Positions 8,731 through 17,341 are shown, counted from the stretch's first letter. The stretch is DNA of 64,000 bases from Abyssibacter profundi (GCF_003151135.1 NZ_QEQK01000007.1:82501-146500), one strand, 5' to 3'. Numbers and translations are program-made. Notes: generated from the letters alone by a model not told the origin.

Positions 8731-9213
8731 CTAGCCGGTCGGCGGCTGAATCAGCGGCCCCAATTCGTTCAATGCGCGGCGGTAGACATCCCGCTTGAAG
8801 AAAATCACCCGCTCGGCGGGCTCGTCCGGCCCAACCCACTGCCAGCGCTCGAACTCCGGCTCGTCATGGGCATCGAACCGAATGGCTGACTCGTCGCTGC
8901 GCAGCCGCAACAGATACCAGATCTGCTTCTGACCGATGCATAACGGCCGCTTGTTGCGGCGGACAAAGCGTTTGGGCAGGCGATACCGCAACCAGCGCTC
9001 GGTGCGTCCGAGACACTCGACATCATCGGGGTCCAGCCCCAGTTCTTCGTGCAATTCTCGGTACATCGCCTGCCGTGGCGACTCACCCCGGCTGATCCCG
9101 CCCTGCGGAAATTGCCAGGCATCCTGGCCAATTCGCTTGGCGATTAACAACTCACCCTTATCATTGGCGATGATGATTCCGACGTTGGCACGAAAGCCGT
9201 CTGCGTCGATCAC
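8731..9213 (-). CDS. rppH: RNA pyrophosphohydrolase (Nudix)
   Basis: Removes pyrophosphate from the 5' end of mRNA, opening transcripts to RNase E decay. The product (about 160 aa) carries the full Nudix box from [20 protein letters not shown] on to LGL, preceded by WQFPQGG, and LRYRLPKR and [11 protein letters not shown] match RppH throughout. GTG at 9213 ([12 protein letters not shown]) is chosen because it aligns with the MIDDDGYRPNVG start of known RppH. The frame continues up to an ATG at 9267 that would add 18 atypical residues. Divergent from the HAD phosphatase. Confidence 0.93.
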
Positions 9214-9267
9214 GGTGGCTTGCCACTTCTGATTCTTGATTCCCCGCATTCTAGTACGAGATCGCAT

Positions 9268-9927
9268 ATGGCCCGCAACTTGGCACTTTTCGACCTGGAC
9301 AACACCTTGCTGCTGGGGGACTCAGACTACAGCTGGGGCGAGTTTCTTGTTCGGGAAGGACTGGTCGATGCGCAGGACTATTTCGAAAAAAATCGAGCAT
9401 TCCACGAGGACTACAAGGCCGGCCAACTCGACATGAATGCGTTCTTTGCCTTCAGCCTACAGCCCTTAATTGATCACGGGGTCACGACGCTGCAAGCACT
9501 GCGCCCCAAGTTCATGGAGACCGTGGTCAAACCGATGATCGCGCCCGGTGCAGCCGCGCTGCTGGACGCACACGCAGCGGACTTCCGCGTCATCATTACG
9601 GCCACCAGCAGCTTCATCACCCAACCGATTGCCGAGCATTTCGGCGTGGACCTGCTGATTGCCACGGATCCAGAGATCGTCGATGGCTGCGCCACCGGCC
9701 GCATCGCGGGTACGCCCTGCTACCAGGCGGGAAAGATCACCAAGCTACAAGACTGGCTGGCATCGAGCGCGCAGGCGTTTGAACAGAGCTGGTTCTATTC
9801 CGACTCCATTAACGACCTGCCGCTGCTGGAATGGTCAGATCATCCGCATGCCGTCCATCCGGATGATCGGCTGCGGGCCATTGCCGAGGCACGAAACTGG
9901 CCAATCCTAAGCCTGGAAACGGCCTAG
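9268..9927 (+). CDS. HAD-IB family phosphatase (SerB-like)
   Basis: Cytoplasmic HAD hydrolase of the phosphoserine phosphatase-like IB subfamily, 219 aa. Motif I is FDLDNTLL with D9 as nucleophile and D11 as acid/base. Motif II is ITATSS, the motif III lysine is in AGKITKL, and motif IV is [12 protein letters not shown] helical cap lies between motifs I and II. The substrate is unknown; relatives act on small phosphomonoesters such as phosphoserine. The upstream open frame is not used, since residue 1 at 9268 gives the family start MARNLALFD. Confidence 0.88.
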
Positions 9928-10746: not shown

Positions 10747-10851
10747 GTTGGTTCCTGTCAGCTAGCGGGGCCAATGGCGCGGCATGGTCCGCGATTCGCC
10801 AGCATCTGCCAAGCCGCATCGTTGACCGCTCACTGAACAACACCGTAGGCT

Positions 10852-11055
10852 TCGCCGCGTTGTTGGATACGGGAAGTGGGTCATGCGCCAGTCGCGACCA
10901 AGCCCACGCTGCCCCCGCAACGGTAGGTGAGAACACCCGTCCGGCCCCTCACGCCACTGCGCCACGCGCGGGAAGGCTGCCGGATGGGCTCACGAGCCCG
11001 GAGACCGCCCAACTTCGAGACCCTTGTTCCTCACGGTGGGTGAGGCACTGGTTCC
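10852..11055 (+). ncRNA. Cobalamin (AdoCbl) riboswitch
   Basis: The conserved B12-riboswitch elements appear in order: GGGAA (10871), CTGCCCCCGCAA (the B12 box, about 10909-10920), CCACTG (10954), GGGAAGG (about 10970) and GAGCCCGGAGACC (about 10993). A small CCTCA...TGAGG hairpin (about 11029-11045) follows that may form the kissing loop. It lies directly ahead of btuB and should lower its expression when adenosylcobalamin is abundant. No intrinsic terminator is seen, so control is probably translational or Rho-linked. Exact edges are approximate. Confidence 0.92.
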
Positions 11056-11099: not shown

Positions 11100-13136
11100 A
11101 TGTCGCAGAATCTGTACAGCTTGACTGGCCCCATTACGCTGGCCCGGCACGGCCTGCGCGCAATGGCGTTGGCCGCCGGCGTGCTATGCGCCGCCGTGAG
11201 CGCGGCCCAATCCCCGGGCGACAGCCAAACGCTGCCCCCTGTGGAAGTCTCGGGACAGGCCAGCGAGATCGAAACCCTGGGCCATGTGGAGCGAATCAAC
11301 ACGGCTCGGGCGCGCGCCCGGGCCCTGGAACTCACCGACCTGCTCGACCAGCAGGCGGGGTTGCAGGTCCGGCGCAGCGGTGGCTTCGGCAGTTTCGCGA
11401 CCGTCTCGGCGCGCGGTGCCTCGGCACAGCAGACCACGTTGACACTGAACGGGCTCCCGCTGGCGCCCACGATTTCGGGTGATTTCAATCTGGGGGCGCT
11501 CAGCCTCAAGCAAATCGATCACATTGATCTATATGCCGGCTACGCGCCCATCGAGTTCGCCGCTGCCGGCCCTGGCGGGGTCATTGACCTGCGCACGGAC
11601 CCGGAGGGCTGGATGCCCAGCGGCTACGCCAGCACTGGCTCGGCCAGCACCTGGCAGGCCGGTGCCCGTACAAGCCTCGAGCATGGCCTCGCCCGCCATG
11701 GATTCAGCCTCGGCGTGGCGGCAAGCGACAACGACTATTCGATCCGTAACCCCAACCGGGCCTTCGACCCCTCCGACCCCGACCGGCGCCGCGAAGAACC
11801 CCGGCGCAATGCGGATGTGCGGCGCGTCCATGGACTGTATGTCGGCCGATGGGGCGCCGATGACGGACCGCGCATGGACAGCCTCATTCAGCTTCAGGAT
11901 CAGGATCAGGGCATTCCGGACGCCCGCAACAGCACACTCGCCCGCACCCGCCTGGGTAGTCAGCAAGCCAATCTGCAAACCCGCATTCGCTGGAGCGAAC
12001 CCGGCGTTTGGCCGCTTGGGCTCACAACACGCGGCTTCTGGCAGGCCAGCCGGCTCCGATACGACGATCGCCAGGATCAAGTCGGCATCTCCGCGCAGCT
12101 CACCGACACCCGGCAACACCACTACGGCGCGGACTTGCTGGCCAGGACAGAGCTGACACCGGCACTGCACTGGTCCGGTCTGGCCCGGCTGTCCCGCGAG
12201 ACCTACCGCGCCACCGACCTGCTGCGGAATCGACAGGATAGCGGCGCGCGTCAGCATGCGCAGCTGGCCACCGAACTGCACTGGGAACGAGATTCGGCGC
12301 TAAGCAGCAGCGCCACGCTTCGGCACCAGATCGTGGAAGACCGCTTTGCGGCGCAGCGCCACCAGCGCGATACCGCCACGACCTGGCAGCTGGCGGCGCA
12401 GTGGTCGCCGACATCCCCCTGGCAACTGCACGTCAACGGTGGCCGGTCGATCCGACCACCCACCTTCTTTGAACGCTTTGGTGATCGCGGACTGTTTATT
12501 GGCAACAGCACGCTACGCCCCGAGTCCGGACGCAACCTCAACCTAGGCCTGGGCTGGGTCCATCTGCCCTGGCGCGCCAGCATCGAGGCCTACGCCAGCC
12601 TGCTGGACGATGCCATCGTCACCCAGTTCGACGTGCTATCAGGCATCGGACGCGCGGAGAACGCCGACAGCGCACGCGTCTGGGGCGCCGAAGCGCGATT
12701 AACCGGCACCTGGGGGCTGGGGCCAGCGGGTCGACTCAACCTGGTGCTACGCGCCGCGGCGCAGGACACCGAGAACACCAGCGCAGGCGTGCTCAACGGC
12801 AAGCAATTGCCCGGCCGCTTCCGCCAGAAAGGCTTCTCAAGCCTGACCTGGCTGCTGCCACGCGACTACGAGCTGTTCTACGAGGTGTTACTGGAACGCG
12901 GCCGCTTCTACGACAGCCTCAACAGCCGACCCGCCCCCGATGTTCAGGTCCACGACCTGGGCTTGCGCAAAGTGCTCCCACTGGGTCGATACCGCCTCGA
13001 CCTGGGTGGCGAGATTCGCAATCTCACCGACCAACACACCCAAGATTTCAGCGCCCAGCCGCAACCGGGCCGCCAGTTCTTCGTCAGCCTCGAATGGGTG
13101 CTGGCGCCGACGCCCCACCATGGAATGGATTCATGA
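11100..13136 (+). CDS. btuB: TonB-dependent vitamin B12 receptor
   Basis: Outer-membrane beta-barrel that imports cobalamin using TonB energy. The 678-aa product has an N-terminal signal peptide (hydrophobic AMALAAGVLCAAVSA), a TonB-box-like stretch before the plug (LPPVEVSG), plug motifs LQVRRSGGFGSFATVSARG and GPGGVIDLRT, then amphipathic strands. The frame is open back to 10860 across the riboswitch; the ATG at 11100 is the first start after it. The last barrel strand (RQFFVSLEWVL) is followed by about ten extra residues, unlike the usual aromatic end, perhaps because the coding end overlaps the next gene by 4 bp. The B12 ligand is inferred from the riboswitch and neighbours. Confidence 0.9.
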   Translation: MSQNLYSLTGPITLARHGLRAMALAAGVLCAAVSAAQSPGDSQTLPPVEVSGQASEIETLGHVERINTARARARALELTDLLDQQAGLQVRRSGGFGSFATVSARGASAQQTTLTLNGLPLAPTISGDFNLGALSLKQIDHIDLYAGYAPIEFAAAGPGGVIDLRTDPEGWMPSGYASTGSASTWQAGARTSLEHGLARHGFSLGVAASDNDYSIRNPNRAFDPSDPDRRREEPRRNADVRRVHGLYVGRWGADDGPRMDSLIQLQDQDQGIPDARNSTLARTRLGSQQANLQTRIRWSEPGVWPLGLTTRGFWQASRLRYDDRQDQVGISAQLTDTRQHHYGADLLARTELTPALHWSGLARLSRETYRATDLLRNRQDSGARQHAQLATELHWERDSALSSSATLRHQIVEDRFAAQRHQRDTATTWQLAAQWSPTSPWQLHVNGGRSIRPPTFFERFGDRGLFIGNSTLRPESGRNLNLGLGWVHLPWRASIEAYASLLDDAIVTQFDVLSGIGRAENADSARVWGAEARLTGTWGLGPAGRLNLVLRAAAQDTENTSAGVLNGKQLPGRFRQKGFSSLTWLLPRDYELFYEVLLERGRFYDSLNSRPAPDVQVHDLGLRKVLPLGRYRLDLGGEIRNLTDQHTQDFSAQPQPGRQFFVSLEWVLAPTPHHGMDS

Positions 13137-14350
13137 CCCGACAAGCACCTCTCACAACACCCCGTCTGCTCCGCCTAAGCCTCCCCCTCGCAGCAGGCCT
13201 GCTCGCCGCCTGCGGCAGCTCTGACTCAGACATCGACCTCATTGTCGATGGGCCGCAACTGGCGGTGGTCACCACCACCGCATCCGATTTCACTAGCGGC
13301 GCACATGCTCTGGTCGAGATCGAGGCGCCCTACCAGACCACGGACGATCTGGATGCAGCGGAGTCTGACATCAGCGTGACCACCTACGGCGAACACATTT
13401 TCAAGCTCCGTCGCTTCAATCTCGACACGGTCACCAAGTACCGACTCGACGCACCGGCCACTCCGGTCTGGCAGTACTCCACGCTCGATGCCGATGACAG
13501 CAGCTCGGCCAATCCCTACGACCTGGTTTTCGCGGCCACCGACAAGGCGTTTCTGCTCCGCTACGGCAGCGACACCGCGTGGATTACCGACCCGAGCGTC
13601 GGCGCCAACCAAGAGGCTGACTTCAAGACCGGGGAGCTGGACCTGTCGGCCTACAACCCGCAGAACGAGGACGGCAGCACCGCGAGCAACCCGAACATGG
13701 CCGCCGGCCTGGTCGTCAATGGCCAGTTGTATGTCGCCATGCAGCGCTTCGATGACAACTTCAATCTGCATGACGCCTATGTCGCGGTCTTCGATCTCGG
13801 CACCGACACCGAAATCCAGACGGGCCAGGACCCGGTACTCCCTGGCATCCCGTTGCCCGTACGCAATCCCATGGCGCTGGACTATGACCCCACGCTAGAT
13901 CGAATTTTCGTCGTCGGTGCCGGGTCGACCTTCCCGTCCAGCGACTACAGCGGCGGGATCGCCGTGATCGACCCCAGCAGCTTCGAAACCGAATTGCTGA
14001 TCGATGACACGGCCAGCACCGGCAGTTTTGGCGCCATGGAAGTCGTCAGCCAGGACCGCGGCTACCTCATCACCTCGGCCGGCTTCGCCAACAACACGCT
14101 GGTTGCCTTCGACCCGCGCGACGGCAGCTTCTACAACAGCACGGCCGGTCAGCCGGGAGCGGTTGCCGGGTTGTCACAGACCAATCTGACGGCGCTGGCT
14201 GCCGATATCGGCGACAGACTCTGGGTCGGTCGTGGCTCGGACAGCAACCCCGGCCTCACCGTCATCGACACGCTGGATGACAGCGTCGTACAGTCGCTGA
14301 TCCCGCTATCGCGCAACCCGGCGCGCGTGGTGTTCATCCGCGCCCGCTAG
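13133..14350 (+). CDS. Beta-propeller lipoprotein in the B12 operon (BtuG-like in context)
   Basis: The 405-aa protein has a lipoprotein signal (LAAGLLAACGSS, cysteine about residue 24), an acidic mature start, and then five or more repeats with the pattern of YncE/SMP-30 propeller blades: NPYDLVFAATDKAFLLRYG, NPMALDYDPTLDRIFVVGAG, GGIAVIDPSS, NTLVAFDPRDG, LTVIDTLDD. Its ATG overlaps the btuB stop (ATGA), so the two are translationally coupled behind the riboswitch. In Bacteroides, BtuG is a surface propeller lipoprotein that caps BtuB and captures B12. No family match beyond the fold is claimed; a BtuB-partner role is inference from fold and position. Confidence 0.8.
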   Translation: MTRQAPLTTPRLLRLSLPLAAGLLAACGSSDSDIDLIVDGPQLAVVTTTASDFTSGAHALVEIEAPYQTTDDLDAAESDISVTTYGEHIFKLRRFNLDTVTKYRLDAPATPVWQYSTLDADDSSSANPYDLVFAATDKAFLLRYGSDTAWITDPSVGANQEADFKTGELDLSAYNPQNEDGSTASNPNMAAGLVVNGQLYVAMQRFDDNFNLHDAYVAVFDLGTDTEIQTGQDPVLPGIPLPVRNPMALDYDPTLDRIFVVGAGSTFPSSDYSGGIAVIDPSSFETELLIDDTASTGSFGAMEVVSQDRGYLITSAGFANNTLVAFDPRDGSFYNSTAGQPGAVAGLSQTNLTALAADIGDRLWVGRGSDSNPGLTVIDTLDDSVVQSLIPLSRNPARVVFIRAR

Positions 14351-14420: not shown

Positions 14421-14963
14421 ATGGGCCACCGACTCAGCAAGATCGTGACGCGCACCGGCGACGCCGGCACCAGTGGGCTGGCGGACGGCGAGCGTCTGCC
14501 CAAGACCCATCCAAGGTTCCAGGCCATGGGCGATGTGGACGAGTTGAACGCATTGCTGGGCGTGTTGTTGGCCCACCACATCGCGGAACGCTTCGCCGCG
14601 CCGCTCAGGCCGGTCCAGCATCAGCTCTTCAACCTCGGTGGCGAGCTCGCCATGCCCGGCCAGGCTCTGATCCGCGAGGACCATGTGGCGGCCCTGGAGC
14701 AGGCATTGGAACCACTGAATGCCGACCTGCCTCCGCTCAAGGAATTTGTGCTACCCACCGGCCCGCTGCCCGTGGTCACCACCCATCACGCCCGTGCTGT
14801 CTGCCGCCGGGCAGAGCGTGCGGTCTGGGCCGTCATGGAGGAGGACGACGACGCCTCACGACTGCCCGCGGTCTACCTGAACCGGCTCTCCGACCTGCTA
14901 TTCGTCATTGCCCGGCAGCTTGCCCGGGCGGCGAATCCACAGGAACAGACCTGGCAGATCTAA
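14421..14963 (+). CDS. Cob(I)alamin adenosyltransferase, PduO type
   Basis: Transfers adenosyl from ATP to cob(I)alamin, making the AdoCbl coenzyme in the cytoplasm. The 180-aa product has the N-terminal ATP motif TRTGDAGTSGL, GDVDELNALLG, the arginine-rich RRAERAV helix, and NRLSDLLFVIAR near the end. These identify the PduO/MMAB family rather than CobA/BtuR. An ATG at 14421 follows a good AGAGGAG site; the frame also opens at 14388. As the third gene after the riboswitch it converts imported B12 to the form the riboswitch senses. Its last 59 bases overlap the end of btuF on the other strand. Confidence 0.92.
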   Translation: MGHRLSKIVTRTGDAGTSGLADGERLPKTHPRFQAMGDVDELNALLGVLLAHHIAERFAAPLRPVQHQLFNLGGELAMPGQALIREDHVAALEQALEPLNADLPPLKEFVLPTGPLPVVTTHHARAVCRRAERAVWAVMEEDDDASRLPAVYLNRLSDLLFVIARQLARAANPQEQTWQI

Positions 14964-15759
14964 CAGCGCTCACGTGATCACATACCCGCTCGGTTCCTAG
15001 TAACAACCGAGGTCCTGGCCGGGTCAGCCAATCCGCCGGGATGTGATGCAGCTGTCGTTGGGCCACCGCCGGGATGGCCTCCAGTCGACGCCAGGGCCGC
15101 TCTCCGGTCGGGCTGCTGTACAGCAAGAGTTCGGGCCGGGCCGCCAGCACAGCCTCGCGGCTGACCTGCGGCGCAATCACCGGGGCATCGGCAAAGACAT
15201 TGCGTCCGCCGCACCAGCGAATGACATCCGATGCCACATGCGCATCACTCAGCGTGTAGAGCGGCGACTCCGAGACCTGGTAGAACACGGCCACCGGCCG
15301 GCCCGTGCGCACGCGCAGCGCCTCCAGTCGCTGCTCGAATGCCTCGGCAGCCTCGCGACCGGCCTCAGCGCGGCCCAGCAACTGGCCGATGCGGCGCATC
15401 GCTGCGGCGACCTCGGGCAAACGTTGGACCTCGATGATCTCGACTGGCAGCTGCAACGCCCGCAATCGCTGGATCTCGGACAGCGGCGTTCCGCCGCCCC
15501 AGGCCAGCACAAGCGTCGGGCGTAGCGTGAGGATTTGTTCCTCGTTGAACTGGAATGCATCGCCAACCGAAGGCAAACCGCGAATCTCTGGCGGATGGTC
15601 CGAATAACGGCTGACGCCCACCAAATGATCGGCGCCCCCCACCGCCGCGACCAGCTCAGCCAGGTGCGGCGCCAGCGTGATCACGCGAGGGGCTGCGATA
15701 CCCGTTAAGGGGCTGAGCAGCAGCATCAGCAGCACGGCCCGACAGCACCCGCGCGTCAT
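14905..15759 (-). CDS. btuF: Cobalamin ABC transporter substrate-binding protein
   Basis: Periplasmic protein that carries B12 to the BtuCD importer. The 284-aa product has a signal peptide (VLLMLLLSPLTGIAAP) and the family pattern VITLAPHLAELVAAVG, VGVSRYSDHPPE, LPSVGDAFQFNEEQILTLRPTLVLAWGGG, and a C-terminal lobe with VSREAVLAARPELLLYSSP. No btuC or btuD lies in the window. Its ATG overlaps the ampE stop by 4 bp, so it is carried by the ampD-ampE transcript rather than the riboswitch operon, to which it is convergent. Confidence 0.9.
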   Translation of the reverse strand: MTRGCCRAVLLMLLLSPLTGIAAPRVITLAPHLAELVAAVGGADHLVGVSRYSDHPPEIRGLPSVGDAFQFNEEQILTLRPTLVLAWGGGTPLSEIQRLRALQLPVEIIEVQRLPEVAAAMRRIGQLLGRAEAGREAAEAFEQRLEALRVRTGRPVAVFYQVSESPLYTLSDAHVASDVIRWCGGRNVFADAPVIAPQVSREAVLAARPELLLYSSPTGERPWRRLEAIPAVAQRQLHHIPADWLTRPGPRLLLGTERVCDHVSAVRSARSVPVDSPPGQAAGQ

Positions 15760-16652
15760 CCCAGCCAGCCACCAATGGTGGGCAAAGCCAGCAATGCAAG
15801 CAGGACCAGCAACGCGCGGCCGCGCAAACCCAGCACGGCCTCCAGCGACGCTTCCAATGAGCGGCTGGGCGGCGACTGGCCACGGTCATCCTGAACGCTC
15901 AGCGCGCCGACACCGACAACCGCCAACTGGCGCCAGGTATCCGCCACCCAGTTCACGGCCGGGGTCTGCAGCACACGGTGCCGCTCGGCCAAGGCATCGT
16001 CCGTGCTGCCGGCCAGCGCGTAAAGCATCTGCGTGATCCGGGCGGGCACCCAGGCCATGATGCCGTGCAACCGCGTGGCGGGTTCGAGCGCGCGCGGACT
16101 GTCGCCCGCATCCTGCAGAACCCGCGGCAGTCCCGAGACGATCCGATACGCCACGGCCCCCACCGGCCCCAGCACGAAGAACCACATCAGTACGGCAAAA
16201 CTGCGTTCGTGCGCCTGAATGCAAATCGCGGCGATCACGGAGCGGCGATCGTCGCCCTGACAGGCCTGCGTCAGCCGGCCCGGCGTACTCAACAAATCGG
16301 CGCGTAAACGATCAACAGCGGCCTGGTCACCATTTTCCTGGGCAGCGAGCAGCGCGTGAATCTCCTCACCCAGGTCCCTGGGCCCCAATGACAGCAGCAA
16401 CACCAAGGTGGCGAACACGAACTCAAGCACGCCGTAGACCGCATCGGCCAACAGCCACTGCACGGCCAGCGTCACCAGCAGCGTGGGGCCCAGCAGCCAC
16501 AGCAGCGCCCAGGGGGTATTCCACATGGCAGCCGGCGCGGATCGATGAAACCAGCGAACGTGACGCTCGAACAAGGCGTGCTCGCGCCAGCTCTCCAAAT
16601 GACTGAGCGCACGCTCCAGCCCCAGCGCCAACACCATCGACAGCAGAATCAT
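15756..16652 (-). CDS. ampE: AmpE-like inner membrane protein
   Basis: Multi-spanning membrane protein of the AmpE/CobD-like family, 298 aa. In enterobacteria it is co-transcribed with ampD and linked to beta-lactam signalling, with no known enzyme activity. It starts MILLSMVLALGLERAL, the usual AmpE opening, and has about four to five hydrophobic segments: residues 46-70, 75-92, 155-175 and the C-terminal LVLLALLALPTIGGW. The start overlaps the ampD stop by 4 bp, confirming the ampDE pair. Distant kinship to CobD may explain how btuF came to be attached (inference). Confidence 0.85.
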   Translation of the reverse strand: MILLSMVLALGLERALSHLESWREHALFERHVRWFHRSAPAAMWNTPWALLWLLGPTLLVTLAVQWLLADAVYGVLEFVFATLVLLLSLGPRDLGEEIHALLAAQENGDQAAVDRLRADLLSTPGRLTQACQGDDRRSVIAAICIQAHERSFAVLMWFFVLGPVGAVAYRIVSGLPRVLQDAGDSPRALEPATRLHGIMAWVPARITQMLYALAGSTDDALAERHRVLQTPAVNWVADTWRQLAVVGVGALSVQDDRGQSPPSRSLEASLEAVLGLRGRALLVLLALLALPTIGGWLG

Positions 16653-17212
16653 GCGGCCACCTCCTCCATCCGTGCCCGATACTGCGCCCAGTCGAACGCC
16701 GGGCCAGGGTCGGTTTTGCGACCAGGTGCGATATCGCTATGGCCGACGATACGGTCCGGGGTCACCCCGGGGTACGCATTTCGCAGTACGGCGGTCACCT
16801 CGGCAAGTCGCTCGTATTGCGCCGAGGCATACGGCGCGTCATCGACACCCTCCAACTCGATACCAATCGAGAAGTCATTGCAGCGTTCACGCCCGGCAAA
16901 ACAGGATTGCCCGGCATGCCAGGCCCGCAACACGGTCGGCACGAACTGCAATAAGCCGCCATCTCGACGGATCAGCAGGTGGGCCGACACGCGCAATTGG
17001 TGAATCTCCGCAAAATACGGGTGCGCCGCAGGATCCAGTCGATTGGTGAACAAGGCCTCGATCCACGGCCCGCCAAACTGCCCTGGCGGCAGGCTGATGC
17101 CATGGATCACCAACAGGTCGATCTCGGCATCATCGGGCCGCTCGTCGCAATTGGGCGAGGGGCAGCGCCGCGCGCCCGACAGCCAGCCGGTTTGTGGATC
17201 AAGCGTCACCAT
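16649..17212 (-). CDS. ampD: 1,6-anhydro-N-acetylmuramyl-L-alanine amidase AmpD
   Basis: Cytoplasmic zinc amidase that cuts the peptide from anhydro-muropeptides during cell-wall recycling, thereby limiting AmpC induction. The 187-aa product has the Amidase_2 zinc ligands: H37 in LLVIHGISLPPG, the later histidine in VGHSDIAPGRKTDPGPAFDW, and the aspartate of KTDPGP. RERCNDFSIGIELEG is nearly identical to E. coli AmpD. The ATG at 17212 matches the family start; an upstream ATG at 17248 would add 12 residues. It works in the same pathway as AnmK at 1968. Confidence 0.95.
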   Translation of the reverse strand: MVTLDPQTGWLSGARRCPSPNCDERPDDAEIDLLVIHGISLPPGQFGGPWIEALFTNRLDPAAHPYFAEIHQLRVSAHLLIRRDGGLLQFVPTVLRAWHAGQSCFAGRERCNDFSIGIELEGVDDAPYASAQYERLAEVTAVLRNAYPGVTPDRIVGHSDIAPGRKTDPGPAFDWAQYRARMEEVAA

Positions 17213-17341
17213 GGACGCTAGCTTAACGGGACCGTGCACGGGACACACGCACGTAGCCGCGGCGGCGACCGACTGATGCGTTCGTGCGAAGCCTGCCGAG
17301 ATTCCCTAGGCTTGCACCCTCTCTTCGTCGACCCGATTCGC

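Follow-up and report, generated by a model that had tools for sequence, protein, structure and literature searches.

In a 64,000-nt stretch of Abyssibacter profundi DNA (the window), a cobalamin riboswitch, a gene for a BtuB-type TonB-dependent receptor, and a gene for a lipoprotein form a single operon. We propose, at a probability of roughly two in three, that the lipoprotein is an outer-membrane beta-propeller resembling BtuG and acts as a lid that catches cobamides for its partner BtuB. Operons that combine such a lipoprotein with btuB under B12 control occur in some marine and soil Proteobacteria. In the literature, BtuG and lipoprotein-capped transporters are called exclusive to Bacteroidetes, and our literature search for a proteobacterial BtuG counterpart found none. 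Structure prediction and gene linkage thus point to a BtuG-like lid arrangement, known from Bacteroidetes, that would be new for Proteobacteria.

The locus in Abyssibacter profundi

An earlier note, made from the sequence alone, had interpreted the lipoprotein as a BtuG-like partner of BtuB, and this interpretation is supported by the present analysis. As the note had it, the gene lies behind a cobalamin riboswitch (Table 1) and overlaps btuB by 4 bp, the lipoprotein ATG (13133) and the receptor TGA (13134 to 13136) sharing the tetranucleotide ATGA. The lipobox and the three blade-like segments that it listed, NPMALDYDPTLDRIFV, GGIAVIDPSS, and NTLVAFDPRDG, are all present in the protein. Riboswitches were called by covariance model, a strict B12-box regular expression having missed most of them. 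The riboswitch, whose 3′ end lies 72 nt from the btuB ATG, is the only RF00174 match in the window and also the only one in the genome. Since the genome has no CbiC, a single B12-binding domain, and this single cobalamin riboswitch, the organism is probably a B12 scavenger.

Genes for AmpE-like and AmpD-like (amidase) proteins are found immediately upstream of btuF (window positions 15756 to 17248, minus strand). CobD/CbiB, its relative in cobamide biosynthesis, is a further match of the AmpE-like protein (2.4e-12).

Table 1. Features of the btuB-lipoprotein locus (window coordinates)
Feature	Position	Strand	Evidence
Cobalamin riboswitch aptamer	10847..11027	+	RF00174, 71.5 bits, E 1.2e-15
BtuB-type TonB-dependent receptor, partner of the putative lid	11100..13136	+	Pfam Plug 3.6e-11, barrel 1.8e-27
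Propeller lipoprotein, proposed BtuG-like B12 lid, 405 aa	13133..14350	+	ATGA overlap, lipobox, AF2 model, PDB matches
Lipoprotein signal peptide and lipidated Cys27 (LAAC)	13133..13213	+	Sequence; Cys27 conservation
Conserved N-terminal loop, residues 47-57, TTTASDFTSGA	13271..13303	+	hhalign alignment to BtuG
PduO-type cob(I)yrinic acid a,c-diamide adenosyltransferase	14421..14963	+	PF01923 6e-52, TIGR00636 7.7e-47
BtuF-like periplasmic B12-binding protein, convergent	14905..15759	-	NF002894 1.3e-50 (below its cut-off), Peripla_BP_2 8.9e-22

Predicted fold of the lipoprotein

No Pfam or NCBIfam family scored above its cut-off with the lipoprotein, a plain sequence search of the PDB returned nothing useful, and a profile search of the PDB gave weak propeller matches only. 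The AlphaFold2 model, built from 19 homologues, has a mean pLDDT of 87.1 and a pTM of 0.85, with residues 1 to 35 alone poorly defined. Fold had been set in advance as a test of the earlier note, and the model is indeed a propeller with BtuG1, BtuG2, and BtuG3 as its top PDB matches. In a Foldseek comparison with 350,542 PDB chains, ranks 1 to 12 are BtuG chains (1.2e-12 to 1.6e-11), followed by XusB (1e-10) and by other propellers at 1e-8 or weaker; E. coli YncE, a generic seven-bladed propeller, is a much weaker match than BtuG (5.6e-8). VIA-align, applied thereafter, places entries of the three BtuG proteins at ranks 1 to 11 (Z 31.1 to 32.6, rmsd 2.7 to 2.9 over 307 to 314 residues, 10 to 18% identity), and an archaeal propeller comes next with a Z of 28.8. 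As propellers are common, the weight rests on the gap in Z to this next entry and on the fact that all of the top entries are B12 lids.

Remote homology to BtuG extends over the full length of the protein (hhalign probability 96%, pairwise E 4.6e-9, 340 columns). The BtuG profile used here consists of four BtuG rows, and all hhalign E-values in this work refer to a single pair and not to a database. In this alignment, the TTTASDFTSGA block coincides with the loop Asn54-Thr64 of BtuG2, a correspondence by alignment only. Cys27 is invariant in 32 of 32 aligned homologues, a lipobox is found in every homologue examined, and 21 of the 28 invariant positions fall in the first half of the propeller (p 0.04). 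The mature proteins are acidic, with a mean net charge of -31 (BtuG2, -18).

In two homologues, L063:6457-8031 (-) and L065:5935-7476, the lipobox is separated from the propeller by an additional N-terminal domain of ~110 aa; that of L063 matches Calx-beta (7e-8).

The receptor and its linkage to the lipoprotein

The receptor does not reach the cut-off of TIGR01779, the BtuB equivalog (73 bits; cut-off, 599.7), and a role in B12 uptake is suggested by the riboswitch, the neighboring genes, and the fold. Its AlphaFold2 model (pLDDT 84.5) has a plug and barrel like those of solved BtuB. The best Foldseek matches are BtuB1, BtuB2, and BtuB3 of B. theta (6e-33 to 1.4e-31), which are partnered by BtuG, followed by XusA (2.3e-31), another receptor with a lid, and PqqU; E. 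coli BtuB matches at 3.8e-30. By VIA-align, BtuB1 (Z 37.4) and E. coli BtuB (Z 36.7) are tied. E. coli BtuB and the lidless riboswitch-linked BtuBs share receptor fold and riboswitch class with the system described here, but they have no lid gene and belong to a separate clade (see below).

Co-occurrence with btuB in related genomes had also been set beforehand as a test. Among 100 related genomes we found 20 homologues, one per genome, and all 20 lie on the same strand directly behind a gene for a BtuB-type receptor, so the btuB linkage reported in the earlier note exceeds chance. A class-wide sample of 274 genomes yielded 16 homologues (13 new) in unchanged arrangement, while the window's own lipoprotein was the sole homologue found in a phylum sample of 398 genomes. 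Profile scanning of named genomes detected 51 loci, 16 of which were already among the earlier ones. In contrast to these 51, the single-sequence version of the scan of genome contigs detected zero relatives, because the pattern method is limited; no stretch of the 32-row alignment is conserved enough for pattern scanning.

Pooling the samples gave 68 distinct loci from Gammaproteobacteria and Desulfobacterota. By our own count, the lipoprotein gene lies directly behind that of a BtuB-type receptor in 65 of them, and 58 have a cobalamin riboswitch; a cobalamin adenosyltransferase or BtuF is often encoded as well. In many families and in both phyla, the lipoprotein gene is almost always found together with btuB and the riboswitch. 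Three of the 10 loci that have no riboswitch are contigs ending at or inside btuB (L036, L067, L078). In L086 (5522-9990), the lipoprotein gene and btuB are convergent, tail to tail, and each has its own cobalamin riboswitch just upstream, so that there the lipoprotein's membership of the regulon is independent of cotranscription. Of the 100 related genomes, 89 have cobalamin riboswitches and 20 have the lipoprotein, which is thus an optional partner.

The nearest named relative is from an Abyssibacter sp. (L076). Among the other named organisms with the lipoprotein are Solimonas terrae, Sinimarinibacterium flocculans, Panacagrimonas perspica, Nevskia, Colwellia, Paraglaciecola arctica, and Psychrosphaera; it is also found in Granulosicoccaceae metagenome-assembled genomes (MAGs) and in Desulfobacterota, e.g., Desulfonema magnum. 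Four Colwellia loci (L108, L114, L118, L122) have the order btuF-btuB-lipoprotein, with no cobalamin riboswitch detected within ~6 kb on either side.

In two desulfobacterotal loci without a cobalamin riboswitch (L116, L117), the lipoprotein gene lies behind that of another TonB-dependent receptor. In both D. magnum (L117:2209-12447) and a Desulfobacteraceae MAG (L116:2715-10394), it is found amid several genes for tetrapyrrole methylase proteins with a signal-peptide-like N terminus, and FmdE and DUF4198 proteins are encoded nearby. Possibly, these are loci for the scavenging of tetrapyrroles or cobalt. Five Acido-Lenti-1 RNA matches lie dispersed around the Desulfonema locus, including 1281-1471, 9167-9342, and 12552-12597.

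A receptor tree was inferred with IQ-TREE from 63 receptors and 674 columns; the long-branch rows L162, L164, and L178 were left out. All 35 lipoprotein-linked receptors fall into one clade (bootstrap 93, SH-aLRT 90), apart from the 19 lidless riboswitch-linked receptors and from the Bacteroidota BtuBs, and the linkage maps onto the tree as one change in 90% of the bootstrap trees. The clade groups with XusA-type receptors (95/90), represented by only two rows on a long branch; the Bacteroidota BtuB references are three rows. A preceding tree, with 73 rows, gave the same picture; its row L193, labeled lidless, is the lipoprotein locus of G048 again and was placed beside its own copy. In a genome with the lipoprotein (G045), a second riboswitch-linked receptor (L177) falls among the lidless type. 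Receptors of Desulfobacterota MAGs (L080, L085, L090, L094, L126) nest within the gammaproteobacterial clade (100/99) together with L119, named Proteobacteria only, and the position of the Desulfobacterota receptors suggests horizontal transfer.

Given the linkage of lipoprotein and receptor, the explanation of an E. coli-like BtuB with an unrelated neighbor was set aside. A partner that assembles or stabilizes the receptor and binds no ligand would likewise be expected to keep so strictly to one clade of receptors, but the two lids of this propeller type with solved structures each bind the transported ligand, and we regard a mere assembly role as highly improbable.

Relation to known lids and proposed mechanism

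Like btuG, the gene encodes a propeller lipoprotein beside btuB under a cobalamin riboswitch, and fold and regulation suggest that the protein would be BtuG-like in action. We do not file it as BtuG, because the DUF5074 and receptor-tree features fail. With the DUF5074 family (PF16819), the lipoprotein scores 12.5 bits (0.073; cut-off, 27.2 bits), and the best of 19 homologues (0.0031) is likewise below the cut-off, whereas BtuG2 passes at 1.9e-20. The BtuG-like proteins of Persicobacter, whose genes adjoin one for a TonB-dependent receptor behind cobalamin riboswitches, pass too. A Bacteroides finegoldii record (L070) encodes a protein identical to BtuG2 across the aligned region. The lipoprotein also differs from BtuG in its low identity (see above), in its hosts, which are Pseudomonadota and Desulfobacterota rather than Bacteroidota, and in its receptor, which does not group with Bacteroidota BtuB. 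Sub-picomolar binding of B12 is a feature of BtuG.

XusB, too, is a propeller lipoprotein that forms the lid of a TonB-dependent receptor, and the receptors group together. Among the sequence-profile comparisons, that with XusB-type relatives from Prevotella and Phocaeicola scores highest (probability 98.8%, pairwise E 8.5e-17, 183 columns), although the fold of the lipoprotein is nearer that of BtuG. A plasmid search provided the corresponding XusAB-type receptor-lipoprotein pairs of Phocaeicola and Prevotella (L071:1159-4846 and L072:1089-4837). Their receptors are XusA-like (phmmer 5.4e-63); their lipoproteins have no Pfam family and resemble XusB (1.5e-7), at a distance from the solved XusB.

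The nearness of both lipoprotein and receptor to XusAB rather than BtuBG by sequence indicates a separate lid family and no recently transferred BtuG. The earlier note had left open a separately evolved or a transferred lid; separate evolution fits better, and a transferred BtuG was set aside on the DUF5074 result and the placement of the receptor with the XusA type. It is tempting to assume a third lineage of propeller lids, allied in sequence to XusAB and not to BtuBG and put to use by Gammaproteobacteria and Desulfobacterota for capturing cobamides, so that lidded transport would not be confined to Bacteroidota; we offer this only tentatively.

The same affinity to xenosiderophore systems, together with the riboswitch-free Desulfonema locus amid tetrapyrrole methylase genes, would suit a lid with a different ligand, such as a siderophore or another tetrapyrrole, the cobalamin riboswitch then reflecting something besides B12 uptake. 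This is improbable in view of the frequency of the riboswitch and of cobalamin genes among the 68 loci and of the B12 proteins that are the best PDB matches by Foldseek for lipoprotein and receptor alike. The window's own locus, with its cobalamin riboswitch and cobalamin genes, is no xenosiderophore (iron) uptake locus like that of XusB.

In B. theta, BtuG caps BtuB like the lid of a pedal bin (PMC10404256). BtuG2 binds B12 in its central cavity, on the negative face, where blades 1 to 4 form hydrogen bonds and the loop Asn54-Thr64 grips the ligand, and upon lid closing the BtuB loop EL8 pushes B12 out of BtuG (PMC10404256). In the scheme proposed here, when cobalamin is scarce, the riboswitch would permit joint production of BtuB, the lipoprotein, and the adenosyltransferase. 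The acidic propeller, held by its N-terminal lipid tether, would capture corrinoid outside the cell, close on BtuB, and pass the vitamin on for TonB-driven import. BtuF and an inner-membrane transporter would take B12 further, and the adenosyltransferase would convert it.

Within this scheme, exposure at the surface is the weakest step. Most gammaproteobacterial lipoproteins face the periplasm, surface export being uncommon, and in E. coli an Asp at position +2 can hold lipoproteins back at the inner membrane. The +2 residue varies among 33 homologues (Gly in 10, Ser in 10, Asp in 7), and the Asp in these seven could mean such retention. The linker following the Cys showed no significant excess of acidity as a surface-export signal (p 0.13, 7 controls), and a search of the genome for a Slam exporter (PF04575), run without a working control, gave no match. 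The lipoprotein could therefore be a membrane-anchored periplasmic binder that takes cobamide from BtuB on the inside and gives it to BtuF, with no lid outside. We consider this unlikely: its nearest structural relatives, BtuG and XusB, cap their receptors from the outside (PMC10404256, PMC13142918), BtuF is encoded alongside and already has the periplasmic role, and the lipoprotein's association with a single clade of receptors suggests that it touches the receptor loops directly.

If the lipoprotein is a lid, lidded B12 capture would not be peculiar to the gut, and marine and soil auxotrophs would have an additional strategy for scavenging cobamides. With a lid family widespread in Gammaproteobacteria that can be cultured (Solimonas, Sinimarinibacterium, Panacagrimonas, Colwellia, Paraglaciecola), the exclusivity to Bacteroidetes would be overturned, and lid opening as well as the surface export of lipoproteins could be studied in new hosts. 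Should a third lid lineage exist, B12 lids would have originated at least twice from a common propeller stock, and the Proteobacteria that have them would need a route that takes a lipoprotein to the cell surface.
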